From positions 1 through 64,000 of the forward strand of contig JAJECT010000032.1 in the NCBI GenBank assembly GCA_022821845.1: 64,000 nt of DNA, read 5' to 3'. The translations under genes and the position numbers were made by a program. The notes under the pieces are model-generated. The model made no database searches and was not told the origin of the DNA. It saw only the letters and a list, made by a program, of their open reading frames with translations. The DNA comes from Rhodothermales bacterium (lineage in GTDB: Bacteria; Bacteroidota; Rhodothermia; Rhodothermales; VXPQ01). Below, in pieces: positions 7,215 through 64,000 of this stretch (the stretch's first letter is position 1; the number at the start of each line of letters is the position of its first letter).

Positions 7215-10200
7215 ATGTTTCGAACCGCCTCCCTGCTTGCATATCTCCTTGTCTTTTGCGCATGCGCGGCGCTGACCCCCGTAGCCGTCGAGGCGCAATA
7301 TTTTGGTCGAAACAAGGTCCAGTACGATCGTTTCGACTTCAAGCATTTCGAAACCGAGCATTTCGTCATCTACTATTACCCCGAAGAAGAGCAGGCGGTT
7401 CGCGACGCGGCGCGCATGGCCGAACGGTGGTACAGCCGGCATTCCCGCACGTACCTCCGGGAATTCAACGAAAAGAAACCGCTCATTTTCTATGCGAACG
7501 ACGCCGATTTCCACCAGACGAATGTAATCGGGGGGCTGATTGGGGAAGGCACCGGCGGCGTAACCGAATCGCTCAAGCAACGCGTCATCATGCCGCTTAC
7601 CGGCAGCTACGCCGAAACGGACCACGTATTGGGGCACGAACTGGTCCACTCCTTCCAGTACGACATTGGCCTGAGCGACCAGGAGCCCATCCGGTTCAAT
7701 CTGGGGCTCTTGCCGTTGTGGCTGATCGAAGGCACGGCGGAGTATCTTTCCGTAGGACGGTCCGACTCGCATACGGCGATGTGGCTGCGGGACGCCTTGC
7801 TTCGGGACGACTTGCCCACCATCGAGCAGTTGACGCGGGACCAGCGCTATTTCCCGTATCGCTTCGGGCAGGCGTACATGGCCTACGTCGGCGGCAAATA
7901 CGGCGACGCCGCCGTGGCGAACCTGTTCAAACTGGCGGGGCGGGCCGGCGTGGACTCTGCGTTCGTCTACGCGCTGGGCATTACGACCGACTCGCTCTCT
8001 ACGGAATGGAAGCAGGTGGTGCGCAAAACCTACGAGCCGTTCATGGAGAACAAAACGCCCCCCGAAGAATCGGGACGGCGCATTCTGGCCCCGGACATCG
8101 ACGGGGGCGAAGTGAACCTTTCTCCTGCGCTCAGCCCGGACGGGGACTACATTGCGTTTCTTTCGGAAAGAGATTTGTTCTCCATCAACCTGTTCGTGGC
8201 CGAAACGAAAACGGGCAAGGTCATATCGAGTCTGAAAAACCCGGCGGCGAACCCCCACATGGACGCGCTGCGCTTCATCCAGTCCGCCGGATCCTGGTCG
8301 CCGGACGGACGGCGGCTGGCCTTCGTTTCCTTTGCGGACGGGGACAACCGGATATCTATTTTCGACGTCAGGCGACGGAAAGTGCGCCAGAACATCGCCG
8401 TGGAAGGGGTTACCGCGCTGACGAACCTCGCCTGGTCGCCGGACGGATCTTCCATTGCGTTTACCGGACTGGAAGGCGGCATCAGCGACCTGTACGTGCT
8501 GAACCTCGAAACAAGCGCCGTGCGACAACTGACCAACGATCGGTACGCAGACCTGCAACCGGACTGGTCGCCGGACGGAAAATACATTGCCTTTACGACG
8601 GATCGGGGCGAAAACCCCACGGACTTCGACCAGCTTCAGTACCAGAAAAACGGGATTGCGCTGTTCGACCTGGAGCGCAACGAAATACGGTCGTTGCGGC
8701 CTTTCGGCGATGTGCTGCATCACAATCCGCAATTCTCGCCGGACGGCAAGGACCTCTATTTCATCAGCGATCAAAACGGTTTCAAGGACGTCTACCGGCT
8801 TGATCTGGCCTCCGAACAGGCGTACCGGATCACCAACCTGGCCACAGGGGTGAGCGGCATTACCGCGCTGTCTCCGGCCATGTCGGTGGCGGACCGCAGC
8901 GGCGAGATGTCCTTTTCGGTGTTCTCGGACAACGCGTATACGGTGTACGTGCGGGAGCCGGACGAACTGCAGGGCGAACCGGCGCCGCCCCAGCCCGCCG
9001 GGCATATCGCTACGGCAAGCGTCCTGCCCCCGATCCGGTCGCTCAACGAAGGGCTGGTGGGCAACTACCTCAACGATTCGATGACGGGCCTGCCCCGCCC
9101 GGACCTGCACTGGCCCGGACACGATTACAAGTCCAGCCTCGAACTGGATTACGTAGCCCCGCCGACCATCGGGGTGGCGGCGGGCGGCTTGTACGGCACG
9201 CAAGTCGCGGGCGGCATCGGCTTTGCGTTCTCGGACATGCTTGGGAACCGGAACCTGTACCTGATCGCGCAAGCCCAGGGCACGTTCAAGGATATCGGGG
9301 GGCAGGCCTCCTATATCGATTACGGACAGCGCATTAACCTGGGCGCCTCCGCAGGACATATTCCGCTCTTGTACGGTTATTCCGCCGGCGGATTCGTGGA
9401 GGGAGGATATCAGGTGGTGGAACAGCTTCGGCAACGCATCTTCATCGACCAGGTGGCGGGCATCGCCCAGTATCCGTTCAGCCAGACGCGGCGGGTCGAA
9501 GCGAATGCGGGATTCATCCGGTACGGATTCGACAACGAGGTGGAGCAATTCGTGGGGTCAGGCTTTTCCTTCGGACGAAATCGCGTCGATCCCGAAGAAT
9601 CCCTGTTTTTCAAGGGAATTACCGAACGAAAACCCTTCTATTTTTTCCAGGCCGGGCTGGCCTTTGTCGGAGATTACTCCTTCAACGGATTCACCTCGCC
9701 GATCAGCGGAGGACGCTACCGCATCGAAGTCTCTCCGAACATCGGAACCGAGACCTTCGTGCGCGGGCTGTTCGATTACCGGCAATACCTGTACGCAGCG
9801 CCCGCCACGTTCGCCGTGCGCGGATTGCACATCGGAAACTACGGGGCCAGATCCACAGACGATCTGTTCACCACGCAATACCTCGGCTATTCCTACTATC
9901 CGGCGTTCGTTCGCGGATACAATTTCCGGTCGTTCGAGACATCGGAATGCATCCCCACGGACATAGGCTTTTCCGGCAGGTGCCCCTCAATGGATCGTTT
10001 GCGGGGTACGCACGTGGCCCTGACGAGCGTGGAAATTCGCATCCCGTTTCTGGGAACCGAGCAGCTGGGGCTTGTTTCGTTTCCGTATCTCCCGACCGAA
10101 CTGGCCTTGTTCGCGGACGGCGGCATAGCATGGAGCAAAGACAGTTCGCCGACGCTCAAATTCGAACGGGACACCAACGAGCACGTACCCGTCTTCAGCG

Positions 10201-10322
10201 CCGGCATGTCTGCGCGGGTCAATATTTTGGGGTACATTGTGCTGGAATCGTATTACGCATATCCTTTCCAGCGCCCGAAAGCCGGTTGGCAGTTGGGATT
10301 CCGCCTGGCGCCCGGCTGGTAA
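7215..10322 (+). CDS. Secreted/outer-membrane metallopeptidase-like protein with PD40 propeller and C-terminal beta-barrel
   Basis: The 1035-residue product has a signal peptide (MFRTASLLAYLLVFCACAAL, cleaved near VEAQ). An N-terminal gluzincin-like domain carries HELVH at residues 141-145 and a downstream WLIEGTAEY (Glu 172), the arrangement of zinc ligands and catalytic Glu in peptidase-MA-like enzymes. Next come at least five TolB/PD40 blades (SPDGDYIAF, SPDGRRLAF, SPDGSSIAF, SPDGKYIAF, SPDGKDLYF). The last ~350 residues are Gly/aromatic-rich and read like a BamA/TamA-type outer-membrane barrel ending with LGFRLAPGW. The ATG at 7215 is chosen because the signal peptide follows directly; the frame stays open far upstream but there lies antisense to mrdA. 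The substrate is unknown. Confidence 0.85.
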   Translation: MFRTASLLAYLLVFCACAALTPVAVEAQYFGRNKVQYDRFDFKHFETEHFVIYYYPEEEQAVRDAARMAERWYSRHSRTYLREFNEKKPLIFYANDADFHQTNVIGGLIGEGTGGVTESLKQRVIMPLTGSYAETDHVLGHELVHSFQYDIGLSDQEPIRFNLGLLPLWLIEGTAEYLSVGRSDSHTAMWLRDALLRDDLPTIEQLTRDQRYFPYRFGQAYMAYVGGKYGDAAVANLFKLAGRAGVDSAFVYALGITTDSLSTEWKQVVRKTYEPFMENKTPPEESGRRILAPDIDGGEVNLSPALSPDGDYIAFLSERDLFSINLFVAETKTGKVISSLKNPAANPHMDALRFIQSAGSWSPDGRRLAFVSFADGDNRISIFDVRRRKVRQNIAVEGVTALTNLAWSPDGSSIAFTGLEGGISDLYVLNLETSAVRQLTNDRYADLQPDWSPDGKYIAFTTDRGENPTDFDQLQYQKNGIALFDLERNEIRSLRPFGDVLHHNPQFSPDGKDLYFISDQNGFKDVYRLDLASEQAYRITNLATGVSGITALSPAMSVADRSGEMSFSVFSDNAYTVYVREPDELQGEPAPPQPAGHIATASVLPPIRSLNEGLVGNYLNDSMTGLPRPDLHWPGHDYKSSLELDYVAPPTIGVAAGGLYGTQVAGGIGFAFSDMLGNRNLYLIAQAQGTFKDIGGQASYIDYGQRINLGASAGHIPLLYGYSAGGFVEGGYQVVEQLRQRIFIDQVAGIAQYPFSQTRRVEANAGFIRYGFDNEVEQFVGSGFSFGRNRVDPEESLFFKGITERKPFYFFQAGLAFVGDYSFNGFTSPISGGRYRIEVSPNIGTETFVRGLFDYRQYLYAAPATFAVRGLHIGNYGARSTDDLFTTQYLGYSYYPAFVRGYNFRSFETSECIPTDIGFSGRCPSMDRLRGTHVALTSVEIRIPFLGTEQLGLVSFPYLPTELALFADGGIAWSKDSSPTLKFERDTNEHVPVFSAGMSARVNILGYIVLESYYAYPFQRPKAGWQLGFRLAPGW

Positions 10323-10340
10323 GGCAACATCGCCCCCCCG

Positions 10341-11447
10341 ATGTACGACATTTTCCGCACCGCACTGTTCAGGTTAGACCCCGAGCAAGCCCATTACGTC
10401 GCCGCTTGCGCCGCGCGAAGCGTACAATTCGCGCGGGCAGAGCAGGCGCTGAAAAAAATGTTTGCGTTCGAGGATGCGCGCCTTGAACAAACGCTTTGGG
10501 GCCATACCTTCCCGTCTCCGGTCGGCCTTGCCGCCGGGTTCGACAAGAATGCGTCGCTGGCGCCGTTCTGGCAGGCGCTGGGATTCGGCTTTGCGGAAAT
10601 CGGCTCGGTCACGGCCTGGCCATCCCGGGGAAACCCCCGACCGCGCGCCTTTCGCCTGATCGAAGACGAAGCGCTCGTCAACCGGATGGGCCTCAACAAC
10701 AAGGGCGTCCGCAACATTGCCCGGCGCCTTCGCCGAACCGCCCCTCGGAGCCGGATTCCCCTCGGAATCAATATCGCCAGTACGCATGGCCGCGCGCTTG
10801 CGGGCAACTCGGCCGTGGAAGATTTCCGCTTGAGTTTCAAGACCATCGCAAACCAGGGAGCCTATGTTGCGCTGAATATCTCTTGCCCGAATACGCCGGA
10901 CGGCAAAACCTTTGAGGACCCAGGGTCCCTGGAAATCCTTTTGAAGGTAATCATGGAGCAACGAAGAAAATCGGCGCCCGACGCGCCCGTGCTCCTGAAG
11001 TTGCCGCCGCCGGTTTCCGATCAGATCGTATTCGACAGCGGCCTCGAGGAAATCGTCCGGCTTGCCCGCGAATACGGCGTTACGGGGTTCGTAGCCGCCA
11101 ACACGGCCCCCGACCGGGAAGGACTTGCCGCGCAGCCCGCCCGCCTCGCCGCCATCGGCGCCGGCGGACTAAGCGGACGACCGCTCGAATCCCGCGCCAC
11201 GCACCTTGTGCGGCATCTGTACCGGCTCACGGAAGGCGCGATGCCCATTATTGGCGTGGGCGGCGTATTTTCCGCCGAGGACGCCTACCGGAAAATCCGC
11301 GCCGGGGCCTCGCTCGTGCAACTGTACACCGCGCTCGTGTACCGCGGCCCGGACGTCGTACGCGAGATCAAGGCCGGGCTGGCGCAGCTGCTCGAACGGG
11401 ACGGCCTGGGTTCGGTGGCGGACGCGGTGGGCGCAGACGCCGCATAA
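10341..11447 (+). CDS. pyrD: Dihydroorotate dehydrogenase (quinone, class 2)
   Basis: Oxidises dihydroorotate to orotate in pyrimidine synthesis, passing electrons to quinone at the inner membrane. The 368-residue protein has an N-terminal helical membrane-association segment (LFRLDPEQAHYVA), FPSPVGLAAGFDKNA, MGLNNKG, the active-site loop NISCPNTPD (class 2 enzymes use a nearby Ser as base), and the C-terminal FMN phosphate site GVGGVFSAEDAYRKIRAGAS. The length and N-terminal extension match the quinone-dependent class. It follows the preceding gene by 18 bases and precedes the TonB receptor by 28 bases, so cotranscription is plausible. Confidence 0.95.
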   Translation: MYDIFRTALFRLDPEQAHYVAACAARSVQFARAEQALKKMFAFEDARLEQTLWGHTFPSPVGLAAGFDKNASLAPFWQALGFGFAEIGSVTAWPSRGNPRPRAFRLIEDEALVNRMGLNNKGVRNIARRLRRTAPRSRIPLGINIASTHGRALAGNSAVEDFRLSFKTIANQGAYVALNISCPNTPDGKTFEDPGSLEILLKVIMEQRRKSAPDAPVLLKLPPPVSDQIVFDSGLEEIVRLAREYGVTGFVAANTAPDREGLAAQPARLAAIGAGGLSGRPLESRATHLVRHLYRLTEGAMPIIGVGGVFSAEDAYRKIRAGASLVQLYTALVYRGPDVVREIKAGLAQLLERDGLGSVADAVGADAA

Positions 11448-11475
11448 CGCCTTTTTCCTTGCCCGCCAGCAAGCC

Positions 11476-14400
11476 GTGCCTGTCCCCGCGACCCGCCTTC
11501 TTATCAGCGCGCTTCTCTGCGCCGCCGCGCTTCTTTGCGGCGGGACAGATTCGGCGCGCGCGCAGTCGGCGGCCACCACCGGCGTCATACGGGGAACCGT
11601 ATACAGCGCTTCGGGCGAACCCGTGGTCGACGCCGGGATCATTATCCACCACCTGGACACCGGCCTGCGCACGATCGTCGAAACCACGGCTACGGGGGCT
11701 TTTGCGCGGGCGCTGCTGCCGCGCGGCGAATATACTATCCTGGTCGTCTCCGAAACCAATCTGGGGGAAATCCGCCGGGAAGGGCTGGTGTTGCATACCG
11801 GCGAAACGCTCGTCCTCGACCTGGCCTTTGCCGTCATCGACCTGGAAGAAATCACCGTAACCGCCCCCGAAGCGCCGCTTCTCGATCCGGAAGACGCGAC
11901 CCGCTCGCAGCGCCTTTCCGAGGACATCGTGGACGCCTTGCCCAACAATGGCCGCAACCTGCTCGACCTGACCCTGCTGACCCCCGGCGTCTCCATCGGA
12001 CAAGGGCCGGACGGAGACGTGCTCAACATCGCCGGACAGCGCGGCATATTCAACAACTTCATGGTCGATGGCGCCGATTTCAACAATCCCTTTTTCGGCG
12101 AACAGCGCGGCGGGCAGCGGCCTGCGTTTACCTTCAATCAGGACGCCGTGGAAGAAATGGTCGTCGTAAGTCAGGGGGCGCCCGCCGAATTCGGTCGTTC
12201 CGCAGGCGGATTCATCCATGTCGTTACGCGCTCCGGGACCAACGATTTCCAGGGATCGGCGCACTATTTCGGGCAATGGGACGCCGTCGCCGCCGAATAT
12301 CGCGCGGAACGGGGAGGCGGCAAGCCGTCCTTTGGACGAAATCAGTTCGGATTTACGCTGGGCGGACCCATCGTACGGGACCGCGCCTTCTTCTTCGCCG
12401 CCTACGATCAGCAGGTTTCGTCCGAAACGAAGCAGACAGACCGGGCGGTTGAGCGGCCGGCGGAACTGGAAAAACTGGAAAATTTCCTGCGCGCGCAGTG
12501 GCCCGGGCGCTTCGAAAACGAATTCGGACCCATCTCCCGCAGCGACGACGCCCGCGCCCTGACCGCCAAGCTGGACTTCCACCTGAACACGCAGAACCAG
12601 GCTTCCATAAAATACAACTATGCCTGGTCCGAACAGGTAAACGGCACCTTCGACGTGGATTCCTGGGGGCGCTCGGCGAACGGGATCGAGCAGGACTACT
12701 CGCACGCCGTCAATGTCGGCTTGCGGTCCTTGCTGGGCAATGCGGCGTTCAACGAATTCCGCGCCCAGTGGGCCGTGGAGCATCGCCCGCGACGCTATCG
12801 GGGGCCTGTTTTGCCGGACGCGGCCCCGCCGCCCACCCCCCAGTTCGACGAAGTGGGCGGACGCCCCTTTCCCGACATCGGCATGGATTTCGCCGACGGG
12901 TTCCGGATCGGCCTGCCATACTTCCTGCCGGTGCACCCCAGCAAAGACGGGCGGTTGCAACTCGTCAACAATGTTTCCTTTCTGGCGGGCGACCATCTTT
13001 TCAAAACCGGGGCAGAATACAACCGCACCACGGTAACGCAACAATTCATCGGCTTCGCCAACGGGCGGTACATTTTCGATTCGGTGGACGGGTTCATCGG
13101 GTTCGTGGAACAGGGGAACCGGTATGTTACCTGTTCGGACGGGGCCAGCAGCGCAGCGGGAATTTGCCCGGAAGGGACGTCGATCACCGGGCCGGCGCTG
13201 TTGTATCTGCAATCGGCGACAGTCCCCGGCGTGCCCCCCGAAAACCTCGGGGTCCAGACCCTCCGCGCCCACGAGCTGGCGCTGTTCGTACAGGACGCCT
13301 GGACGATAAGAACCGACCTGATCCTGCATCTGGGGCTGCGATGGGAAGGGGTATGGCATCCGGACGTGTTCGTAAAGCCGGAGGATACGTTCTATGCGCC
13401 GTATCTGAGCGATCCGCGTTTTCCCTCGGACGGGACCATTCCCGACGACCTCGACAATTTCCAGCCCCGCCTGGGATTGACCTGGAATGTCGGGGGAAAG
13501 AACGCCACGGTGGCGCGCGCCAACGCCGGATCGTATTATGCGCGCATACCGGGGCTGGTCTTTGCCTCGCCGCGCTCCACCAACGGCGCGTACCAGCAGA
13601 TTCTGTTCCGAAGCAGCGCCGATTCGCCCGCGCTGGGCCCCGTGCCCGCGATCGACGCCCTGATTGACGGGTCCGATACGGTCCCCTTCCTGCCGGACGT
13701 CCATGTTGTCGGGCGCGATCTGGAACTGCCGCGCACCTGGTCGTTCAGCGCCGGAGTAGACCATGCGCTGGGCGCCGGCCTGGCGGCGGGCGTGTCCTGG
13801 CAACATGCCCGCACCGATCATCTTTTTCGCTTTGTGGATCGCAACGCCGCCGCGCTCGGATCGCCCTTCGGCGCGGGGACGCACCCGGGAGGCGGCGGAC
13901 TCGCTACGCTGTACGCCGTGGAAAGCACGGCCCGCTCGCGGTACCACGGAATCACGCTGGGCGCGCGGGGACGGGACGCGCTGAGGGGCCTGCTGGATTT
14001 CGAAGCCAGTTACACCCTTTCTTTCGACCGCTCCGACGACGACAACGAACGCGACCCGTTCACGTTCACGTACGCAGACGCCCGCAACCTGGACCCGGAA
14101 TACGGCTGGTCCGACCGCGACCGACGCCATCGGTTCGCCGGGTATTTCGCCTTTGCGCTTCCGGGGAAGATTTCGTTCAGCAACATTTTCCGGTATCTTT
14201 CGGCTTCGCCGGTTTCCGAGCGGTGCGACCGGCGGGGGGAACGCGCCGCCGCGCCGGCGGACCGCGTCTGCGCGGACGGCGCAATCCTGCAGCGCAATAC
14301 CCTGCGGCGGAACAACGCCTTCTTTACCTGGGACGCCCGGATCGCGCGCACATTCGGGACCCGGGCCCGGCTCGAAGTCATGGTCGATTTTTTCAATGTC

Positions 14401-53256: not shown

Positions 53257-54627
53257 ATGCCCGACTTGTTCAAGGAAGCCGCCGACCGGTATATTTCGCG
53301 GAATGCGCCGCTGGCGGATCGCATGCGTCCTCGTACGCTGGACGAATTCGTCGGGCAGGAACACATTCTCGGGCCGGGCAGGCTTCTGCGCCGGGCCATC
53401 CAGGCGGATCGCATCACGTCCGTCATCTTCTATGGCCCGCCGGGCAGCGGCAAAACCACCCTCGCCCGCATCGTTGCAAACACCACCAAGGCGCATTTTG
53501 CGTCTCTGAATGCGGTGCTGTCCGGCGTCAAGGACATCCGCGAGGCGATCAGCGACGCGAGAACCCGACTGGAGCAGCATCAGCGGCGGACCATCCTGTT
53601 CATCGACGAGGTGCACCGGTTCAACAAGTCGCAGCAGGATGCGCTCCTGCCGCATGTCGAGAACGGGACGGTCGTGCTGATCGGGGCCACGACGGAGAAT
53701 CCGTATTTCGAAGTGAACAAGGCGCTCGTGAGCCGGTCCCGCATTTTCGAATTGCGGACGCTCGACGAACCGGCGCTGCGGCAGATTGCGGTCTATGCGC
53801 TCGAAGATACGGAACGAGGATACGGCGACCACGATGTGCAGATCGCGCCCGAGGCGCTGGATCATTTGATCGACACGGCCAACGGCGATGCGCGTTCGGC
53901 GCTGAATGCCCTGGAACTGGCCGTGGAGACAACCGCTCCGGACGAGGCGGGCGCCATTCGGATCGATCTGGCGGTGGCGGAAGAAAGCATCCAGCGGCGC
54001 GCCGTCCTGTACGACAAGGAAGGGGACGTGCACTACGACACGATCAGCGCGTTCATCAAGAGCCTCCGCGGGTCCGATCCCGACGCGGCCCTGTACTGGA
54101 TGGCCAAAATGCTGTACGCCGGAGAGGACCCCCGTTTCATCATTCGCCGCATGTTCATCTTCGCGGCGGAGGACATCGGCCTGGCGGATCCCCGCGCGCT
54201 TCAGATCGCGTCGGCTACGGCGCACGGATTCGACTATGTGGGCATGCCCGAAGGGCAGTTTATGTTATCCGAGTGCTGCCTGTATCTGGCCACGGCGCCC
54301 AAAAGCAACTCCACCATGTCGTATTTCAGCGCGCTTTCCCATGTCCGGCAGGAGCGGTCCGACGACGTGCCGAATCACCTCAAGGACGCCAGTCGGGACA
54401 AGGAAGGGTTTGGCCACGGGAAGGGCTACAAGTACCCCCATGCATTCCATGAACACTATGTGCCCCAGCAATATTTGCCCGACGAAATGCGGGGCACGTA
54501 CTTTTACGAACCCGCCGAGATAGGCTACGAGGCGGAGGTGGTTCGCCGCATGGAGGAATTTCGCCGCCGCGACGCCGAAGAAGACTTCGAACGCCGCGTC
54601 CGCAAATACGCGGAAGGGGAGGAATAG
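53257..54627 (+). CDS. rarA: Replication-associated recombination protein A (RarA/MgsA AAA+ ATPase)
   Basis: Clamp-loader-like AAA+ ATPase acting at stalled replication forks. The 456-residue protein begins with [20 protein letters not shown], then Walker [13 protein letters not shown] (about 60-71), Walker [21 protein letters not shown], sensor region [12 protein letters not shown], and the MgsA C-terminal domain with [20 protein letters not shown] and ending in the HYVPQQYLP motif. The length is normal. The ATG at 53257 fits the family start. It is likely housekeeping although it sits between two putative toxin or defence-type pairs. Confidence 0.95.
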
Positions 54628-54702
54628 GGCCCGCGGATTTGCAGGAACGTTTACAGGGGGTTGCGGATATGGGTAGCCTTCCGACCATGAAATACTTACG
54701 CC

Positions 54703-55587
54703 ATGTCTGAATTTTACCCCATCGTTACCGTAGAGCCGGAATGGGTGCTGGGAGGCGAGGACATGGGCAGCAAGGAAAAGTTCTGGTATCGCGATACCGC
54801 AGGGCGTAACAAGAATTGCCTGTTCAAATACTCAAGAAGGGATACGGGCGAGCATTGGGCTGAAAAGATCGCCGCAGAAGTAGCGGCATGCCTTGGGACG
54901 TTGCATGCCAAGGTGGAATTGGCTGAATTTCAGAATGTGTATGGATCGACAACAGAGTCTTTCGCTCGTCGGGGCCGGGCGCTGATCCATGGCAATGAGG
55001 TATTGGCCATTCTCATATCCGATTATAACCCGAGAAAAAAATTTCACCAGTCTGCCCATACGCTTGACAATATCCTGGCGGTATTGGATAGCGTTTTCAC
55101 AAACAGCGGAGAGAAACGGCTATTTGCAGAGTACCTGGTGCTGGATGCGGTGATCGGCAATACGGATCGCCACCATGAAAACTGGGGGTTTCAACTACGC
55201 CGTCGCGGCGAGAAGGAATGGGATATATCACTGGCCCCTTCTTTCGATCATGCCTCCTCTTTGGGCAGAGAGCTCAGGGACGAGCGGCGTGATCGGCTTA
55301 TGGCTGAAGATCGCGTCGGACGCTATGCGGAAAAGGGCCATGGCGGAATCTACTGGTCCCCGGACGAACGACGCGGCCCCAGCCCGCTTGAACTGGTGCG
55401 ACGAGCCGCCAGCACGTATCTGGACCTGTTCCGCCCAGCGCTCGCGAAACTGGACCGGCTTGACGAGGGTATATTACGGAGCATAATCGACCGCGTACCT
55501 TCCGACTGGATGTCTGCATCGGCTCGGAAGTTCGCATTGGCGTTGATGCGTTATAACCTCGAACAATTAAGACGACTTGAACCATGA
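54703..55587 (+). CDS. HipA-like kinase domain protein (compact form)
   Basis: A 294-residue protein with a HipA C-terminal-like kinase fold. The N-lobe carries GSKEKFWYRD and NCLFKYSRRDTGEHWAEKIA with a probable ATP-binding Lys. The catalytic loop is VLDAVIGNTDRHHENWGFQL (Asp-Arg and Asn spaced as in HipA) and the metal-binding motif LAPSFDHASSLG follows. It lacks the N-terminal subdomain of the 440-residue HipA. Its stop overlaps the next gene by 4 bases (ATGA), and that gene supplies a HipA-N-like and HIRAN segment, so the two may form one split kinase system. The target is unknown; E. coli HipA phosphorylates glutamyl-tRNA synthetase. Confidence 0.8.
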   Translation: MSEFYPIVTVEPEWVLGGEDMGSKEKFWYRDTAGRNKNCLFKYSRRDTGEHWAEKIAAEVAACLGTLHAKVELAEFQNVYGSTTESFARRGRALIHGNEVLAILISDYNPRKKFHQSAHTLDNILAVLDSVFTNSGEKRLFAEYLVLDAVIGNTDRHHENWGFQLRRRGEKEWDISLAPSFDHASSLGRELRDERRDRLMAEDRVGRYAEKGHGGIYWSPDERRGPSPLELVRRAASTYLDLFRPALAKLDRLDEGILRSIIDRVPSDWMSASARKFALALMRYNLEQLRRLEP

Positions 55588-56345
55588 ACGAAAGGACCCT
55601 CTTTCTTGCCTGGCAGGATAAGAGCCGCAGCCGCCAATGGTTTCCGATTGGCAGGCTGGATGCGGACCGAGACCTTTCCAGGTATCGTTTCCGATACACG
55701 CATGGCGCCCGTCGAGCGCAGGAGGAGGCGTATTTCCCGACCCTTCCAGAATTTCCGGAAATGGATAAGGAGTATTTTTCTCCAGCGTTGTTTTACCTTT
55801 TCCAGAACCGGGTTATGAAGCCGAACCGCCCGGATTTTCAGGAACACGTCAAGCGCCTGGGGCTTCCCGAGGATTCCAATCCCGATTCTTTTCAGATTCT
55901 ATCGGTGAGCGGCGGCCAGCGAATTACAGACTTTTACGAGGTTTTTCCGAAAATCGAGACGAATGCCGCTGGCGATTTTACCACCCGTTTTTTTCTTCAC
56001 GGTTGGCGATACGCCAATGAGGCCGCCCAAAGTCGCCTTGCCCAAGTGGAATCCGGGGAAGAACTGTACGTGGCCCTGGAACTGAACAATCCGGTGACCA
56101 GGGTGTCCGTGCAAATCCAGACAACAGATTATCATATGATTGGTTGGGCTCCGCGCTACCTTGTGTCGGACCTTGCGAAGTCAATCGCTTGTTCGCCCGG
56201 CAAGTATGAGGCGAAGGTTGTTCGGCTCAATCCTCCGCCAGCCCCCATGAAGCAACGGTTGCTCATCGAACTGCGCGGCAATCTCGGCGAGCACGAACCG
56301 ATGGCGGACGAGGATTTCCTTCCTCTGGTCGAGGCGGCGGGGTAG
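55584..56345 (+). CDS. HIRAN-domain protein with HipA-N-like region, partner of the HipA-like kinase
   Basis: A 253-residue protein. Residues about 5-95 resemble the HipA N-terminal subdomain (WFPIGRLDADRDLSRYRFRY, then FPEMDKEYFSPALFYLFQNR and KPNRPDFQEHVKRLGL). Residues about 105-215 look like a HIRAN domain (DFYEVFPKIETN, FFLHGWRYANEAAQSRLAQV, GEELYVALELNNPVTRVSVQ, MIGWAPRYLVSDL), a fold that binds DNA ends in HLTF-type proteins. It overlaps the kinase gene by 4 bases. No HipB-like repressor is adjacent. A degraded inverted copy of its 3' end lies at 51119-51205. The two-part composition is an inference from motif resemblance. Confidence 0.75.
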   Translation: MNERTLFLAWQDKSRSRQWFPIGRLDADRDLSRYRFRYTHGARRAQEEAYFPTLPEFPEMDKEYFSPALFYLFQNRVMKPNRPDFQEHVKRLGLPEDSNPDSFQILSVSGGQRITDFYEVFPKIETNAAGDFTTRFFLHGWRYANEAAQSRLAQVESGEELYVALELNNPVTRVSVQIQTTDYHMIGWAPRYLVSDLAKSIACSPGKYEAKVVRLNPPPAPMKQRLLIELRGNLGEHEPMADEDFLPLVEAAG

Positions 56346-56380
56346 GGAAAGCGCCGAAAATCCCTCTCCCGGATACGCAA

Positions 56381-56423: not shown

Positions 56424-56547
56424 GTTTGCCCGAATTAACGCCCGAAAAAGAGGCATTTCATTGCCAATGCAGCCGGTTTTTTCGTTTATTCATAGAGAGG
56501 GTGTCCGAAACACGCCGACTTATTCTCGACCAGAACGGAAAAATCTC

Positions 56548-57429
56548 ATGAGCAATACACGCCGAACTTTCCTGAAAACGCTGGGCGTAGCCGCCGCCGG
56601 CGCCGTGGTGGGCGGCTGCCGCGAAACTTCCGAGCCGCAAGCGGAACCCGTCGTGACCGAGCCGCCGCTTCCCAGAATCGGATTCCAGTTGTACACAGTT
56701 CGGGACGCCATCGAGGCGGACGCCGCAGCAGCGCTCGGTCGCGTCGCCGAAATGGGGTATACCTCCGTGGAAACAGGGTTCTGGCCAGAGGGCATGACCC
56801 TGACGCAGGCGAGCAATCTCCTCAAGGACGCGGGGCTCAGCGTGTTCTCGGCGCATATCGAGATTCCCGAAGGAGCGCACCGGGCTGCCGTGCTGGAGGC
56901 CGCCGAGGCCTACGACTGCGACCGCATGGTGTGGCACGGATGGCCCGAGGACGAACGCTACCAGACGATGGACGGCATCAGGGAACTGGCCGACGTCTAC
57001 AACGAGGCCTACGCTTTCTGCCAGGCGAATGGCCTGCAATTCGGGCTGCATAATCACTGGTGGGAATTCGAGCCGAATGCGGACGGCGCGCTTCCATACT
57101 ATGAAATCATGCCCCTCGTCGAGCCTGGAATTTTCTTCGAAATAGATACGTACTGGGCCAACGTGGGGGGACTCGACCCGGCGAAAGTAGTGGAGGATTG
57201 GGGCGCCCGCGCTCCCTTGTTGCACATCAAGGATGCGCTGGCGCTCTCGACCGAAGGTCCCATGGTGGCGGCGGGAAGCGGCCTGCAGGATTTCCCCGCC
57301 ATTGCGGCGGCAGGACGCGGACATACGGAATGGATGATCGTGGAAATGGACGATTGCGAGACAGACATCTTCGAAGCCGCCGCGCAAAGTTTCGCGTATC
57401 TTGTGGAAAACGGGTTGGCGGAAGGATAG
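56548..57429 (+). CDS. Exported sugar phosphate isomerase/epimerase-like TIM-barrel protein
   Basis: A 293-residue protein with a twin-arginine leader and lipobox (MSNTRRTFLKTLGVAAAGAV, VGGC), so it is predicted to be a periplasmic or surface lipoprotein. The body is an AP-endonuclease-2-type TIM barrel: RIGFQLYTVRDAIEADAAAA, GYTSVETGFWP, LQFGLHNHWWEFEP, FFEIDTYWANVGGLDP and LLHIKDAL, with metal-ligand Glu, His and Asp at the expected strand ends. The ATG at 56548 directly precedes the Tat motif. Similar exported proteins in Bacteroidota act on sugars or inositols together with Gfo/Idh/MocA enzymes such as the one at 45519; no direct link is shown here. Confidence 0.85.
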   Translation: MSNTRRTFLKTLGVAAAGAVVGGCRETSEPQAEPVVTEPPLPRIGFQLYTVRDAIEADAAAALGRVAEMGYTSVETGFWPEGMTLTQASNLLKDAGLSVFSAHIEIPEGAHRAAVLEAAEAYDCDRMVWHGWPEDERYQTMDGIRELADVYNEAYAFCQANGLQFGLHNHWWEFEPNADGALPYYEIMPLVEPGIFFEIDTYWANVGGLDPAKVVEDWGARAPLLHIKDALALSTEGPMVAAGSGLQDFPAIAAAGRGHTEWMIVEMDDCETDIFEAAAQSFAYLVENGLAEG

Positions 57430-57489
57430 CAGGGAGAATGCCCTCTCATAAATCACAAATTCCCCTGCGATACGAGAAACCACTACGGA

Positions 57490-60400
57490 TTAAAGGCCAT
57501 TAAGCAGCTCAGAAGTCAGAAACTCACGGGCCTTGTGACGATCAAGTTTGGTCGAGTAGTATTGGGTGCCATAGGTTAGCAGGCACCCATGACAAGCCCT
57601 GTCGCACTTCTTCACACAGCTCAGAACGGAAACCGAATCGCGCAACGAAGCGGCGACATGTTCGCGCAGCGCCGCCACATAGCCGTTGCCGCCCGCAGCC
57701 GCATCGTAGAGAAAAATCGATTGTTGAACCGTTTCGTCACGGGCTCTCCCCTCACGCACGGCAACGCCAACTTCTTCCTCCTCTATGCCAATGTAACGAC
57801 AGAAAGATCGGCGCAACGCGATGCTGATTGAAAGCGCCGTTCCCTCATCGGTCAAGCCCGCAAGTTGCAATTCGAAGATGTCGGTAGTCCGACTACCCCC
57901 CAGCGACAATTCGCGCTGAATGGCAAATCCGGTTCCATCGCACTGGCTACTGCCATCTGGATCCTTCCCGCCCCGGAGGCGTGGATGTCCATCTTTGAGT
58001 GCCTCTGGCAGGTTGGATTTTTTTGCCGAACCAACTTCGGACGCTGCACGACCACAGCGCAAACAAACAGCGTATCCATGGCCGTGTACGCCCCGACTGC
58101 CGTGAAACAGGTGCCCCTGATCAGTGTAGCGGAACCGCCCAATGCCTGAATCGACCAGTGAAGTCCATTCAAGCGTTGGACAGCTAATCCAAGGGGGTTC
58201 TACCGGAATGTAGGTTGGCGTAATGACATTGTTGTGCGGCGAATGGCGAATATCGACTGCGAATCCGGCAGGTTCCAAGTACTTTTCCGCCTTCACGGAG
58301 CCGTCGCAGTGCGGACATTGCTCAGGCGGTGAGTGATTATCGCCAGTAGCTCCGCATTCGCGACAGCGCCAAACGTGACGAAGTGACTGCACCTCATTTA
58401 CACTCTCCACGTCTGCAGGAATATGCCAATTGAGCGTTACGCCACCCGATTCATAGACCCGACCATCCATGACAATCTCCGCCCCCGGCGCGTACTCCCG
58501 AATAGCCATCTCAATTTGCCGCGACGGATAACCCAGCCGCTTGCCAAGCGCGTCGTCTCTGCCCTCGCGGTCTTTCTGTATTCGTTTCAAGTCGTTGATC
58601 GTCACCGGAATAAAGGTGACAATGCCCGTGGGAAATCCATAGCCGGGCAAGAATTGCCGATTTGCAAGTTCTCGTAACAGGTATTCTTTTTCTAACCGCT
58701 TTATCTGGTGTTCCACTGCGCGAACCGCCGGAGCTTTGGTTGCATCTGATTCATCCTCAAACTGTGCCGCATCCTTACGTAGAGCATCGACCTCGCGGCG
58801 CCATGCATCCATTGATTGCTCCATGGCCTCCGCGGTAGCATCAAGCAGATGAGAGACCTTACGAGCACACAGTGCAGTATCGCGGACCAAGCGATTCAAT
58901 CCCGTAATCAGTTCTTCGTTGCGCTCCGCTTTTGTGCGACACCACGCAATAAACTGCTCTCCAGGATTCGAACCAGACTCGTCGTCCTGAAAGAACAGTC
59001 CCGTCTTCAGGCGTCGGACATCTTGACCTTGCAAAAACGTGCCAAGGCACAAGGAATTGACATGTCTCTGCACAAGACGTGCGCTGTCAAACGCAATTCG
59101 GGGGGCGCTCATCTGCACGGTAAAGGGCCACAATGGACGGTTGAACACCTGCTCCCCATGAGGCGAACTCGGGCACAGCGTAACCGCAAAAGACACCCCC
59201 TCGCCCCGCCGTCCGGCCCGACCGGCGCGTTGCAGATAATTGGCGGAGCTTGGCGGCGCGTTATTCATGATCACCGCCGAGAGTCCGCCAATGTCAACGC
59301 CCATCTCCATCGTGGTCGAGCAACTGAGCACATTCAGTTTACCGTTCTTGAAACGCTTTTCAAGTTCGCGCAAACGTCCTCCGTCAAGTTGCGCAGAGTG
59401 TTCGGCGGCTTCAAAGTACGGCGCATTGGCGACGATGCGGTCGTTCAGATTGGTCCAGACTCCAAGTTTACGAGCCTCTTGTACCTTTGGATCGCTCTCC
59501 AGCCAATTTATAATCTCCTCGCGATCAGTCTCTTGCCCCGACGCGTCGCGCCAGTACGCCGAGGGAACACGGGGCGGAGTAAATTCCTGACACGGCTCCG
59601 CTACCCCCTTCGCCGGAAGGTAGGGCGAAAGGCCCTTCAGCGTTGCGTCAAGTACGCGTGCGGTATAGGGACAGACCGCGGCGAACGAAAGTTCACCCAG
59701 CACGGCAATCTCGTCGAGCTTGAGCAAATATCCATCTCCCACCGACTGAAACCAAGGAGACAATGCTTTCCAGGCGCACTGCAAAGCTTCGTTTATTTTG
59801 TCCGTACTGGACTTTGAATCATCGAGCCTGGCAGCTTCTCGCAAGAGCCTGGGCAAACGCGATGGCCTGCCACCCTGTCTGATCTCTGGCCACCGTCGTT
59901 GTCGAAATGTAAACGGGCCTTTGAAGCCGGGTCCTTGAACGTATCGCTTCCGAACAGGTATGCCCATCCATCGCAAATAAGCATCTTCCACCCGCACAGC
60001 GCTGACATCGCGCATGAAAAAATCGAGCACGAGTTTCAAAAATACGGTCCATTCCTCGACTGGAAGCGGCCAGCCGGGTGGAGGGTTCTTGCCTCCTAAG
60101 AAAGGATAACGTAGGGACACGAGTCCCATTGTCTCGGACGAGTTCATGCGCTTCGGTCGGCGGAAGAATTCCCGGTAGAGACAAAAATCGGCGAAGTCGT
60201 CCAGCGTGGCAGAAATGTAACTCGTTCGGCAGAAGCGCTTGTGCATCCGACAAAGGCTTGAATCGTCCTTGAGACGAGCGGCAGCGGCTTTCCACGACAG
60301 CGTTCCGAGCTCGCTCGCTGTACGGGCCCGAGAGAGTTCGGCTTCCTTCTGTTCCAAGATGGGACGCAGTGTCGAGGAGTTGATTTTTCGGAGATCTGCG

Positions 60401-62448
60401 ATCTGCTGCTCCAACTCGTCCAGATTGCTCGTACCCATGGCCTCCCTTTCGGCGGCCAGCGCGTGGTAGAGGATGCTCCGCACCCGATTGCGCTCCGCCT
60501 CCTGCTGAAGCCTCACCGCCAGACGCGCGGAGCCCTGCCGCGAGTCGCTGAAGCCCAAGAGTCTCCGGCCCTGGTTTGGCAGCCCGGCGGTACCGGGACG
60601 CATCGGTCGGGTGTGCTCCAGGGCTGTCGGCACAATGGTGGACAGCGCGAACGGCGCACCGATGCGCAACTCCCGGAAGAGTCGACGACGCTTGTTCTTC
60701 GCCCCGCATCGAACACAAATCGTTGAATCGTTACCGAGAGGAGCGAGACAAATCGGGGCCCCGTCTCCATTCTCACGAAGAGTACCATCTTGCTGAAGAC
60801 ACCACGTTTTTAGGTCTTCTACATTTGGGATTTTGTTACAAAGTAACCTGCGACATCCAGGCGATACGGATGCTTCGTCTTCGCTATCGCCATCATCATC
60901 CTCATCGGGATCAAATTCGAGCTGAAATTCGTCGATTTCCTCCGTTTCGATGTAGGGCAACAGCTTGTGTTCACCGGTGCCTTCCGAAAACTTCTCTTCG
61001 ACAGACAGATAGTCCTGCCCGCACTCCGTACAGGCCACCAGTTCGAATACAGGAAAATCGCAGTGTTCGCAATGGGTACGGCGGTGCGGGAATATGGCGC
61101 CAAAGCCCCAGCCGTCCCCAATGCTCCTGTCCCGACCGGAACAGACCGCATTGATGCATGCCCACAGGCCGCTCTGCGCCCGATGAAAGAGATGTATGCG
61201 CACCGGCAAAAAAGCCTCGCCGTTTCGGCGGGCGACCGAACCCTTTTCGACAAGTTCAATTATCTTCTTATCGTCATCAAGGCCAGACTTCTGCCGCAGT
61301 ACCTGAAGCGTGGCAGGCTTTTCAGCCAACTGATCACGAATCTTTCTTGCGCCTGGGTAATGGCAAAGCGCTTCGTATAGGTCCTCTGCTTGCAATCCTC
61401 CCAAAGTCTCCGGGCTCTGTGCCAGGTCCGCTGGTGGCAATGGTGGAATGTGCCGCTCACCGGTGACAACATGGACCCGATCCAATGGTGCTCCAGAGAC
61501 ATCCGCAAGGAAACGTTGCAAATCCTTTTGGGCTTCGTCGCCACCAATAGTGGCCGATGTGGCGATAAAGCGCACATCCCCCGGATCGACATTAAAGTGG
61601 TGTAGCACACGCCGGAGCAGCAAGGCCATTTCGGCGGCTTGGGAACCGATGTAGGTATGAGCCTCGTCCAGCACAATCCACCGGAGCTTGCCGCAAGATT
61701 GTTCGAGAATCGGTCTATCCTCAGTGCGAACAAGCATGTATTCCAGCATCGTCGAGTTGGTGACGAGTGCGGGAGCCGGATTTTCGCGGAGCGCCTTTCT
61801 TGAAATCTGTTCCGCACCCGCTCGCATCTGTTCATGGGCTGGCACCGTCTCTGGAGTTTCCCCGTTGTAAAGACAGAACCGAATATCGTCTCCAAAGCCA
61901 TTGCACCAGGCTCGAAGCCTGTCACGCTGACTATTGATAAGGGCATTCAGGGGATACAGAAATAGTGCACGAACGCCGGTCAAGGCACCGATTTTTTCGT
62001 GCTCGCGGGCCAAGTCTTCAAGGATCGGCACAAGGAAGCACTCCGTTTTTCCGGAACCGGTGCCGCTCGTGACCAATACCGAACGAGGCACATCGTCAAG
62101 CAGATGTTGCCAGCAATCGAGTTGATGTTGAAAGGGCTTTCTGGTTTGAGGAAATGCCTGCTCCTTGTATGGCCCCTTTGGCTTGGCCATCGCCGAGACC
62201 AGCTTTTGCCGAAGCAGGCCTCTTTGGACCAAACCACTCATGTTTACATCTGCAACTTTCCAGCCGAAAGTTGCTTCCAGCACAGGATCGGCTAATAAAG
62301 CGCCCGATTCGCCGGGATTCTGGGCATACAGATTTTCCAAATACTCTCGCAGCGCAAGAGAACGCAGACCCAGTTGGGATAGAATGGCGCGGCCGGAACG
62401 GGTCGAAATATCCCGGATGAGGTTCGAAATATTGACGGTTTCGGTCAT
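57490..62448 (-). CDS. Very large DEAD/DEAH-type helicase with zinc motifs and DUF1998-like C-terminus
   Basis: A 1652-residue superfamily 2 helicase. Motifs: Q-like FQHQLDCWQHLL (about 106-117), Walker A SGTGSGKT (128-135), DEAH (261-264, WIVLDEAHTYIGSQ), FIATSATIGG, and motif VI YLQRAGRAGRRGEG. Cys pairs suggest several zinc sites: CEHCDFP, CTECGQDY, CVRCGAKNK, WRCRECGATG with CPHCDG. The C-terminus (CVKKCDRACHGCLLTYGTQY) matches the four-Cys end of DUF1998. The core is split by a ~600-residue insertion between the two RecA domains. Large DUF1998 helicases occur in DISARM (DrmA) and Druantia (DruE) defence systems. Its ATG overlaps the stop of the upstream gene by 4 bases. Confidence 0.85.
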   Translation of the reverse strand: MTETVNISNLIRDISTRSGRAILSQLGLRSLALREYLENLYAQNPGESGALLADPVLEATFGWKVADVNMSGLVQRGLLRQKLVSAMAKPKGPYKEQAFPQTRKPFQHQLDCWQHLLDDVPRSVLVTSGTGSGKTECFLVPILEDLAREHEKIGALTGVRALFLYPLNALINSQRDRLRAWCNGFGDDIRFCLYNGETPETVPAHEQMRAGAEQISRKALRENPAPALVTNSTMLEYMLVRTEDRPILEQSCGKLRWIVLDEAHTYIGSQAAEMALLLRRVLHHFNVDPGDVRFIATSATIGGDEAQKDLQRFLADVSGAPLDRVHVVTGERHIPPLPPADLAQSPETLGGLQAEDLYEALCHYPGARKIRDQLAEKPATLQVLRQKSGLDDDKKIIELVEKGSVARRNGEAFLPVRIHLFHRAQSGLWACINAVCSGRDRSIGDGWGFGAIFPHRRTHCEHCDFPVFELVACTECGQDYLSVEEKFSEGTGEHKLLPYIETEEIDEFQLEFDPDEDDDGDSEDEASVSPGCRRLLCNKIPNVEDLKTWCLQQDGTLRENGDGAPICLAPLGNDSTICVRCGAKNKRRRLFRELRIGAPFALSTIVPTALEHTRPMRPGTAGLPNQGRRLLGFSDSRQGSARLAVRLQQEAERNRVRSILYHALAAEREAMGTSNLDELEQQIADLRKINSSTLRPILEQKEAELSRARTASELGTLSWKAAAARLKDDSSLCRMHKRFCRTSYISATLDDFADFCLYREFFRRPKRMNSSETMGLVSLRYPFLGGKNPPPGWPLPVEEWTVFLKLVLDFFMRDVSAVRVEDAYLRWMGIPVRKRYVQGPGFKGPFTFRQRRWPEIRQGGRPSRLPRLLREAARLDDSKSSTDKINEALQCAWKALSPWFQSVGDGYLLKLDEIAVLGELSFAAVCPYTARVLDATLKGLSPYLPAKGVAEPCQEFTPPRVPSAYWRDASGQETDREEIINWLESDPKVQEARKLGVWTNLNDRIVANAPYFEAAEHSAQLDGGRLRELEKRFKNGKLNVLSCSTTMEMGVDIGGLSAVIMNNAPPSSANYLQRAGRAGRRGEGVSFAVTLCPSSPHGEQVFNRPLWPFTVQMSAPRIAFDSARLVQRHVNSLCLGTFLQGQDVRRLKTGLFFQDDESGSNPGEQFIAWCRTKAERNEELITGLNRLVRDTALCARKVSHLLDATAEAMEQSMDAWRREVDALRKDAAQFEDESDATKAPAVRAVEHQIKRLEKEYLLRELANRQFLPGYGFPTGIVTFIPVTINDLKRIQKDREGRDDALGKRLGYPSRQIEMAIREYAPGAEIVMDGRVYESGGVTLNWHIPADVESVNEVQSLRHVWRCRECGATGDNHSPPEQCPHCDGSVKAEKYLEPAGFAVDIRHSPHNNVITPTYIPVEPPWISCPTLEWTSLVDSGIGRFRYTDQGHLFHGSRGVHGHGYAVCLRCGRAASEVGSAKKSNLPEALKDGHPRLRGGKDPDGSSQCDGTGFAIQRELSLGGSRTTDIFELQLAGLTDEGTALSISIALRRSFCRYIGIEEEEVGVAVREGRARDETVQQSIFLYDAAAGGNGYVAALREHVAASLRDSVSVLSCVKKCDRACHGCLLTYGTQYYSTKLDRHKAREFLTSELLNGL

Positions 62449-64000
62449 AGTTCACCTTTGTCTTGCATGATTGCAAATTGGAACCAGGCTGCCTCATACG
62501 CTAAATCAAACCACTCGGGGTCGTGGGCGCGTATACGCTTAACAAGAAATGTCGTGCGTTCGGTGGCTTTTGACTTGAAGCAACACCAGGCTGCGGCAAC
62601 GGGAGTGTCAAAAATGGGTTGGCGTTCTCGGGATTCCCCTTCTTGCTGCCAGACAGCGAGTTTGTTGAGCAACTCGCCCTGCTCAAGTTCATCCGCCCAC
62701 TCACTGCGCCCATTCCCTTTTGGCCAGTCGTTCAAGCTAAATCGCAGACGAAGTTGCTCTTGGGTTTTGTCGTTCCGGTTTTTCTGAGATTTCTCCATGA
62801 TCGAATCCGGGATTTGATGCCCCATCAACCGAAAGTCGATGTCACACTTCACGGTGTGCAGTTCCTGAATCTGACGAGTGCCCTCAGTTAAAATAGAACG
62901 AACATGTTCGCACGCTATCCGAACTGCCTGGTCATCATTTGCCATGTCGGTGAGCTGGCTATGGAGACGCTCGAATACCTGCTTGGCCTCGGTCCACCAT
63001 ATCTCACGCTTGATCAGAAACCAACTGAATGGAAGTTTGTCTTCCAATTTCCACAACAATTGTCGGGGTGCACTTTCGAGCTGGAACACACACCGAACTA
63101 GGAGATTCGGCTTTGACACTAGGACCTTCAGAAGATCGAGTTCGGTAGCGGGCAAACTTTCAGCACACAACAACGAATCAGTCAGAAAAGACCATTCTTC
63201 TTCATCCTGGTTCGTTTCTTCTGAATTCAACATAGCATCCATTGCCCTTGCAATGGCTCGTTTACGCAAATCTGGATCGTCTAAACTCATAGCCTCTCGT
63301 AAACAAGGAGCTTCTGCATCATTATTGCCGACAAAATCGGTTGACCTGCCGCCGATCACAATAGGTTGAACACGCATCTTATCGCCATGCCGCACCACTA
63401 TCATCCAAGGTTCCTTGAGGTCCAGATTTTGAGGTATTTCGACCATACCAATAGTACTATCCATAGAAACAGGATGAGCATCTGGACTAGCGAGAGATAA
63501 CAATTCAAAAGAAACATGTGCTTCGCCATTATCATCCAAAGCAGGCGATATGGAAATAGAAGCCTTGTTGGCATCATATTCCAATATCCCCTCGAAACGT
63601 TTGACTTCGGCGTACTCAGACTGATTTGGTTTGGGAATTGCTCTATCTGGAGACATAATTCTTAGTACAATCGTTGCCTCACCGGAAGATGATGCGGCCA
63701 GTAACTGTTCTATTATAGACCTTGCTTCAAAGAGAGGAAGTTCATATACCAATCCAGACTTCCGCAATGGGAACTGAAAATTGGCAATACGAAACAGACT
63801 ATTACCCAGATCTGATGTTTTTAATTCGCCATAGAGCCAAAATTGTTGAGTATCTTTCGGGGACAGCGCAATCGCCCGAACTCCATATAGGTCATCAATA
63901 GTAAATTTCTGATCCAAAGATTTGCCATCTCGCGAAAAATGTCCTCCATATCCGGGAAAAGGTGCTTTTACATGTAACTGGGCCCGATCCCGCCAATGCA
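62445..64000 (-). CDS. Unknown protein coupled to the DUF1998 helicase (5' end beyond the window)
   Basis: The frame is open from 62445 to the window edge (at least 517 codons). A TTG at 63917 could start it, but the residues upstream in frame (WRDRAQLHVKAPFPGYGGHF) read like protein, so the gene probably begins outside the window. No known domain is recognised. Visible segments: FWLYGELKTSDLGNSLFRIA, a beta-rich first half, and a helical second half with REIWWTEAKQVFERLHSQL and AAWCCFKSKATERTTFLVKR. Base composition is AT-richer than the housekeeping genes. Its stop overlaps the helicase start (ATGA). The order unknown-protein-then-helicase resembles Druantia type III (druH-druE), but homology is untested. 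Confidence 0.75.
   Translation of the reverse strand, partial: HWRDRAQLHVKAPFPGYGGHFSRDGKSLDQKFTIDDLYGVRAIALSPKDTQQFWLYGELKTSDLGNSLFRIANFQFPLRKSGLVYELPLFEARSIIEQLLAASSSGEATIVLRIMSPDRAIPKPNQSEYAEVKRFEGILEYDANKASISISPALDDNGEAHVSFELLSLASPDAHPVSMDSTIGMVEIPQNLDLKEPWMIVVRHGDKMRVQPIVIGGRSTDFVGNNDAEAPCLREAMSLDDPDLRKRAIARAMDAMLNSEETNQDEEEWSFLTDSLLCAESLPATELDLLKVLVSKPNLLVRCVFQLESAPRQLLWKLEDKLPFSWFLIKREIWWTEAKQVFERLHSQLTDMANDDQAVRIACEHVRSILTEGTRQIQELHTVKCDIDFRLMGHQIPDSIMEKSQKNRNDKTQEQLRLRFSLNDWPKGNGRSEWADELEQGELLNKLAVWQQEGESRERQPIFDTPVAAAWCCFKSKATERTTFLVKRIRAHDPEWFDLAYEAAWFQFAIMQDKGEL

Follow-up and report, generated by a model that had tools for sequence, protein, structure and literature searches.

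What kind of system is encoded by the two overlapping genes that lie at the end of the DNA stretch considered here, and how might it act if one of them lacks the part that is held to cut DNA in a known relative? The window, that is the whole stretch of 64,000 nucleotides that was analysed, corresponds to C42:1-64000 of a contig of 99,808 bp. An earlier note on it had described a 1652-residue DEAH helicase with zinc motifs and a DUF1998-type end, overlapping by 4 bases a gene of at least 517 codons, and had left it between a candidate new defence system and one resembling Druantia type III.

The two genes and their family

The helicase gene, druE, occupies 57490..62448 on the minus strand, begins with ATG and encodes a YprA-family SF2 helicase of 1652 aa. 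The Pfam domains DEAD, Helicase_C and MZB (the zinc-binding domain previously named DUF1998) all score over cut-off and many Cys pairs are invariant across the DruE alignment, which confirms the domain description of the earlier note. The Walker A motif GTGSGKTE (residues 129-136; 62041..62064, minus strand) contains K134, the equivalent of E. coli K121, where the lysine is invariant in 76/76, and in the DEAH box (residues 261-264; 61657..61668, minus strand) D261 and E262 correspond to E. coli D251 and E252. MZB (57580..57825, minus strand) is the last domain of the protein.

The partner, druH, is open on the minus strand over 62445-63998, and its C-terminal 517 codons (feature 62445..64000) fall within the window, the stop overlapping the druE start in a 4-nt ATGA at 62445..62448. 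The window thus ends inside the gene, as had been noted. In the longer locus sequence, L002, the full frame from a TTG runs over 8446-11919 on the minus strand (1157 aa, to window-equivalent 65918), and a start at Met36 (L002:11814) gives 1122 aa, to window-equivalent 65813; Met36 is the likelier start, since profile matches of the partner begin at about residue 41. The thought that further genes may follow is refuted by the sequence past 64000, in which an opposite-strand neighbour comes after the partner. No third operon gene was found after the partner in the contig sequence beyond the window, and the operon is read as comprising just two genes, both neighbours sitting on the opposite strand.

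The family of the pair was approached through profiles and solved structures. The PADLOC DruE3 profile (PDLC00037) aligns helicase residues 5-1649 with profile positions 5-1678 of 2055 at 1949.6 bits, against 581 bits for the DruE profile of type I, 353 for type II and 340 for type IV, and this best model is also that of the E. coli and Pseudomonas Druantia III proteins. The best solved homologue of the helicase is the DruE of E. coli Druantia III (PDB 9tu7_Y, 1176 bits), and that of the partner is the corresponding DruH (PDB 9tud_A, E=7e-63). The partner indeed has no Pfam domain and shares only about 25% identity with E. coli DruH, which could suggest a defence system of a new kind, outside Druantia, whose partner protein is of no known family; however, the DruH3 profile (PDLC00049) covers almost the whole of it, with 120 bits for the part in the window and 304.9 bits for the full protein, and a solved homologue exists. 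The partner is therefore DruH, and the new-system reading, already refuted, is highly improbable. DISARM was likewise rejected: the helicase and DUF1998 lie in one protein, the DrmA match reaches 39.9 bits, and no methylase or PLD gene stands alongside, as the earlier note had observed.

Profile matches, gene order, homologues of solved structure and pairing in other genomes assign the pair to Druantia type III (druH-druE), a firmer placing than the likeness first proposed. DruE falls in the type III clade by profile bits and by tree, DruH lies directly upstream of it with the 4-nt overlap, and the two-gene operon is without DruABCD or DruMFG, both neighbours being opposite-strand host genes. 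The C-terminal PLDi-PLDa nuclease of DruE is absent; this module varies within the family and is therefore neither a defining feature nor a bar to membership. Among fetched relatives with enough upstream sequence, DruH is directly upstream of DruE on the same strand, a few broken frames excepted, and the count speaks for pairing within the Druantia III family because the loci were sampled using a Druantia III alignment. Best hits to DruE and DruH are also the outcome that the earlier note had named as the mark of Druantia III. The 4-nt overlap recurs in the nearest relative (L013) and in about a dozen others. No phage records carrying DruH were found.

Acquisition between two housekeeping genes

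On the left the system is bordered by about 65 bp (57425..57489) without homology to sister genomes, which form the boundary of the inserted stretch and sit between the druE stop and the end of a convergent host gene (56461..57429, plus strand) that lies outside the system and encodes a TAT-signal protein with a xylose-isomerase-like TIM barrel. The other flank is an aspartokinase/DAP decarboxylase gene, the lysA-aspartokinase fusion, and no Zorya genes were found among the scanned flanking genes. In composition, druH has 49.6% GC and druE 55.7%, compared with 59.9% for the window and 61-64% for flanking housekeeping genes, so that the AT-richer character ascribed to the partner is borne out.

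The suggestion of acquisition can be taken beyond composition by comparison with five other genomes of the genus, four of which were included in the DruE search and gave no DruE match. The lysA-aspartokinase fusion adjoins a TIM-barrel homologue or remnant, 163-326 bp away, in 4/5 of these genomes; three have a close homologue (80-94%) beside lysA and the fourth, G313, a C-terminal remnant. Relative to sister genome G301, which is about 95% identical here, an extra 8,529 bp (L002:3426-11954) holding druHE only stands where G301 has 84 bp. Comparison of this 84-bp spacer with the spacer of G313 shows homology (score 50.5, shuffled sequence giving 12.2 +/- 2.3), and no such homology is seen for the boundary sequence of the window genome; the empty state is therefore taken as ancestral and druHE as gained. 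The empty site thus supports the acquisition of druHE and its insertion between two housekeeping genes, and with it horizontal acquisition of the pair. No integrase is visible at the insertion, and the search for a target-site duplication gave only shared 6-mers, which are not convincing. The nearest DruE relatives belong to gammaproteobacterial MAGs (72% and 62% identical), and the two full DruE matches from the same class reach 40-41% identity; G081, labelled as of the same class, has a DruE identical to that of L023 and seems to represent an Aliifodinibius (Balneolota) MAG.

Some further features of the region may be recorded here. About 3.3 kb beyond the intact lysA-aspartokinase gene, here as in G301, lies a second copy of part of its 3' end (aa 762-824), which is 89% identical and interrupted by stops; the repeat region (L002:14582-18123, window-equivalent 68581-72122) flanks genes without Pfam matches and looks like an inserted element or a duplication at the 3' end of the gene. 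On the other side, window positions 54000-56346, where a HipA_C-like gene (54703-55587) is followed by one with a HIRAN domain (55584-56345), have the opposite orientation in G301 when the TIM-barrel gene is taken as reference. A gene with GmrSD_N-like and Schlafen AlbA_2 domains, located some 6 kb upstream of druH (L002:18159-19985, window-equivalent 72158-73984), gives weak matches to PADLOC HEC-05 and PDC-M55C and is possibly another defence gene.

The absent PLD module of DruE

The reference for comparison is the Druantia III system of E. coli (DruH 1119 aa, DruE about 2104 aa; 9tu7, 9tud; PMC13192584), with which the window pair has in common gene order, DruH family, helicase/zinc/DUF1998 architecture, and catalytic and ssDNA residues. 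It differs in that DruE ends as ...LDRHKAREFLTSELLNGL and a stop directly after DUF1998/MZB, at a point matching E. coli residue about 1721, where the sister protein of L013 continues with ELLAGLDLEEYLRLLG... for about 390 aa. This is the most unusual trait of the locus, and one that the earlier note had overlooked. In E. coli the residues from about 1722 on make up the PLDi and PLDa part (PMC13192584), and both are missing here. Across 70 long DruEs the tail is weakly conserved overall, with 99% conservation of Y1945, D1947, H2037, R2039, D2056 and G2058 (E. coli numbering), which are read as a candidate active site under selection. Could the module have moved elsewhere? A tail profile found no PLD tail in all six frames of the contig stretches examined, and when the L013 tail was used as query neither the whole window genome nor those of L014 and L016 gave a match, the positive controls L013 and L080 both being detected; the window genome encodes other PLDc_2 proteins, outside contig C42. 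A minus-strand ORF of 341 aa after druE (56458-57483) was rejected as a split-off nuclease, being antisense to the TIM-barrel gene and without Pfam or PADLOC match.

The DruE tree, built without the actinobacterial short DruEs and without members of the III-like branch of Bell et al., joins the window with L013 (support 99, starred) and then with L014 (100, starred), pairs L016 with the long L080 (100, starred), and groups the window with E. coli DruE at a support of 93, below the star threshold. L013, from an uncultured gammaproteobacterium (OY282433.1), resembles the window in its upstream, overlapping druH and a DruE 72% identical, but keeps the PLD tail (2037 aa); L014 (VXYL01000093.1; 62% DruE identity, druH likewise upstream with overlap) is short as in the window, at 1638 aa. 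A single clade of short DruEs is rejected, since the five rows labelled short need five changes on the tree. The DruEs of the window, L014 and L016 have clean ends at the same linker, and by the tree and alignment L014 and L016 lost the module separately, at the same boundary as the window. In L031 the cut lies inside PLDi and in L059 inside the core, and both are probably broken genes; in L073 (5909-12440) the DruE frame is broken and the PLD tail lies in a following frame, by frameshift or as a split gene.

It thus looks as though the window DruE secondarily lost its C-terminal PLDi-PLDa module, cleanly and at a domain boundary. The main rival, judged unlikely, is that the locus is a decaying remnant: druE would have lost its 3' end upon insertion or shortly afterwards, and the system would no longer defend. 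The druE stop lies 65 bp inside the insertion boundary, and in a relative, the Asaia MAG gene L031:4331-9334, the cut in PLDi falls just before what looks by eye like IS transposase sequence. Moreover, a requirement for the PLD pocket and the CTD is reported for E. coli, where R1258A (assigned to the active PLD pocket) and CTD assembly mutants abolish defence by Druantia alone (PMC13192584); a DruE lacking PLD could thus be inactive on its own. Set against decay are the fully open frames of both genes (1122-1157 and 1652 codons), the stop exactly at a domain boundary, as in the separate losses of L014 and L016, and an unaccelerated rate: the window DruE has 114 unique changes and the intact L013 protein 104. 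Between these two dN is 0.19 and dS about 2, near saturation, and recent decay keeps some of its probability because selection tests mostly cover the time before truncation.

Nuclease-less DruEs have been described before, in the Druantia III-like branch of Bell et al. 2025, where DruE is most frequently without the nuclease domain (PMC12458937), and in M. smegmatis (PMC13316683). Unlike that branch, the window DruE falls among the long DruEs that carry PLD, next to a tailed sister, and its loss therefore looks separate. No description of repeated clean PLD loss inside a PLD-bearing group was found in the Druantia literature examined.

How a DruE without nuclease might defend

All the E. coli residues for ATP (K121, R165, D251, E252, R1135) and for ssDNA (N156, R207, N221, Y227, R231, R1372) are kept in the window DruE. 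In DruH, the N-terminal residues whose mutation kills defence in E. coli (PMC13192584) are mostly kept, with Q109 replacing R78 and W146 replacing Y114. The E. coli DruH nucleotide-interface residues and CTD assembly residues are not conserved in the window proteins, and R1258 is not conserved among long DruEs.

The second system of relevance is that of M. smegmatis (MSMEG_1253/1254; PMC13316683), likewise two overlapping genes, with a DruH of 1132 aa. Its 1667-aa DruE contains DExD/H, Helicase_C and DUF1998 only and gives DruH-dependent defence, blocking phage circularisation and replication. It is from a different phylum and, by its published description, has the same Pfam domain set. The window therefore presents the mycobacterial architecture inside the E. 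coli lineage, which favours a DruH-licensed, helicase-based block.

The preferred reading, with a probability of about 0.72, is thus a complete, horizontally acquired Druantia III operon in which a nuclease-less DruE would act as a DruH-licensed helicase block of phage DNA. Its identity, intactness, gene order, acquisition, conserved helicase catalytic and ssDNA residues and lack of the nuclease are established by the analysis; sensing, DNA loading and replication block are proposed from literature on relatives. DruH would register infection by means of its conserved N-terminal surface, the cue in known systems being a phage tail or baseplate protein, and would license DruE. The latter may load on 3' ssDNA that is accessible in intermediates of phage replication or processing and, with the use of ATP, remodel and occupy the DNA such that the phage genome could neither circularise nor replicate. 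Any DNA cleavage would be the work of DruH or of host nucleases rather than of DruE. A sub-case with a different cutter, in which DruH supplies the nuclease and the pair still destroys phage DNA, is doubtful: nicking and cutting of DNA in vitro is reported for dimers of the E. coli protein (PMC13192584) and DruH is full-length here, but among 73 DruH sequences, in a divergent alignment, almost no charged residue is conserved (R110, at 90%, is the one exception), and N672, Y733, D735, R1064 and K1067, which belong to the nucleotide site in E. coli, are kept neither in the family nor in the window, so that no family-wide catalytic site is visible.

For the family, it may be suggested, quite tentatively, that the core act of canonical Druantia III is non-nucleolytic, the PLD of DruE being a detachable effector that is shed repeatedly while the pair stays functional. 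This matters given that the two 2026 studies of Druantia III seem at odds over cutting by DruE, with an essential PLD in E. coli and nuclease-less defence in mycobacteria. The window and L013 represent a natural pair, their DruEs 72% identical, one without and one with the module, and make the nuclease question testable by a tail swap.
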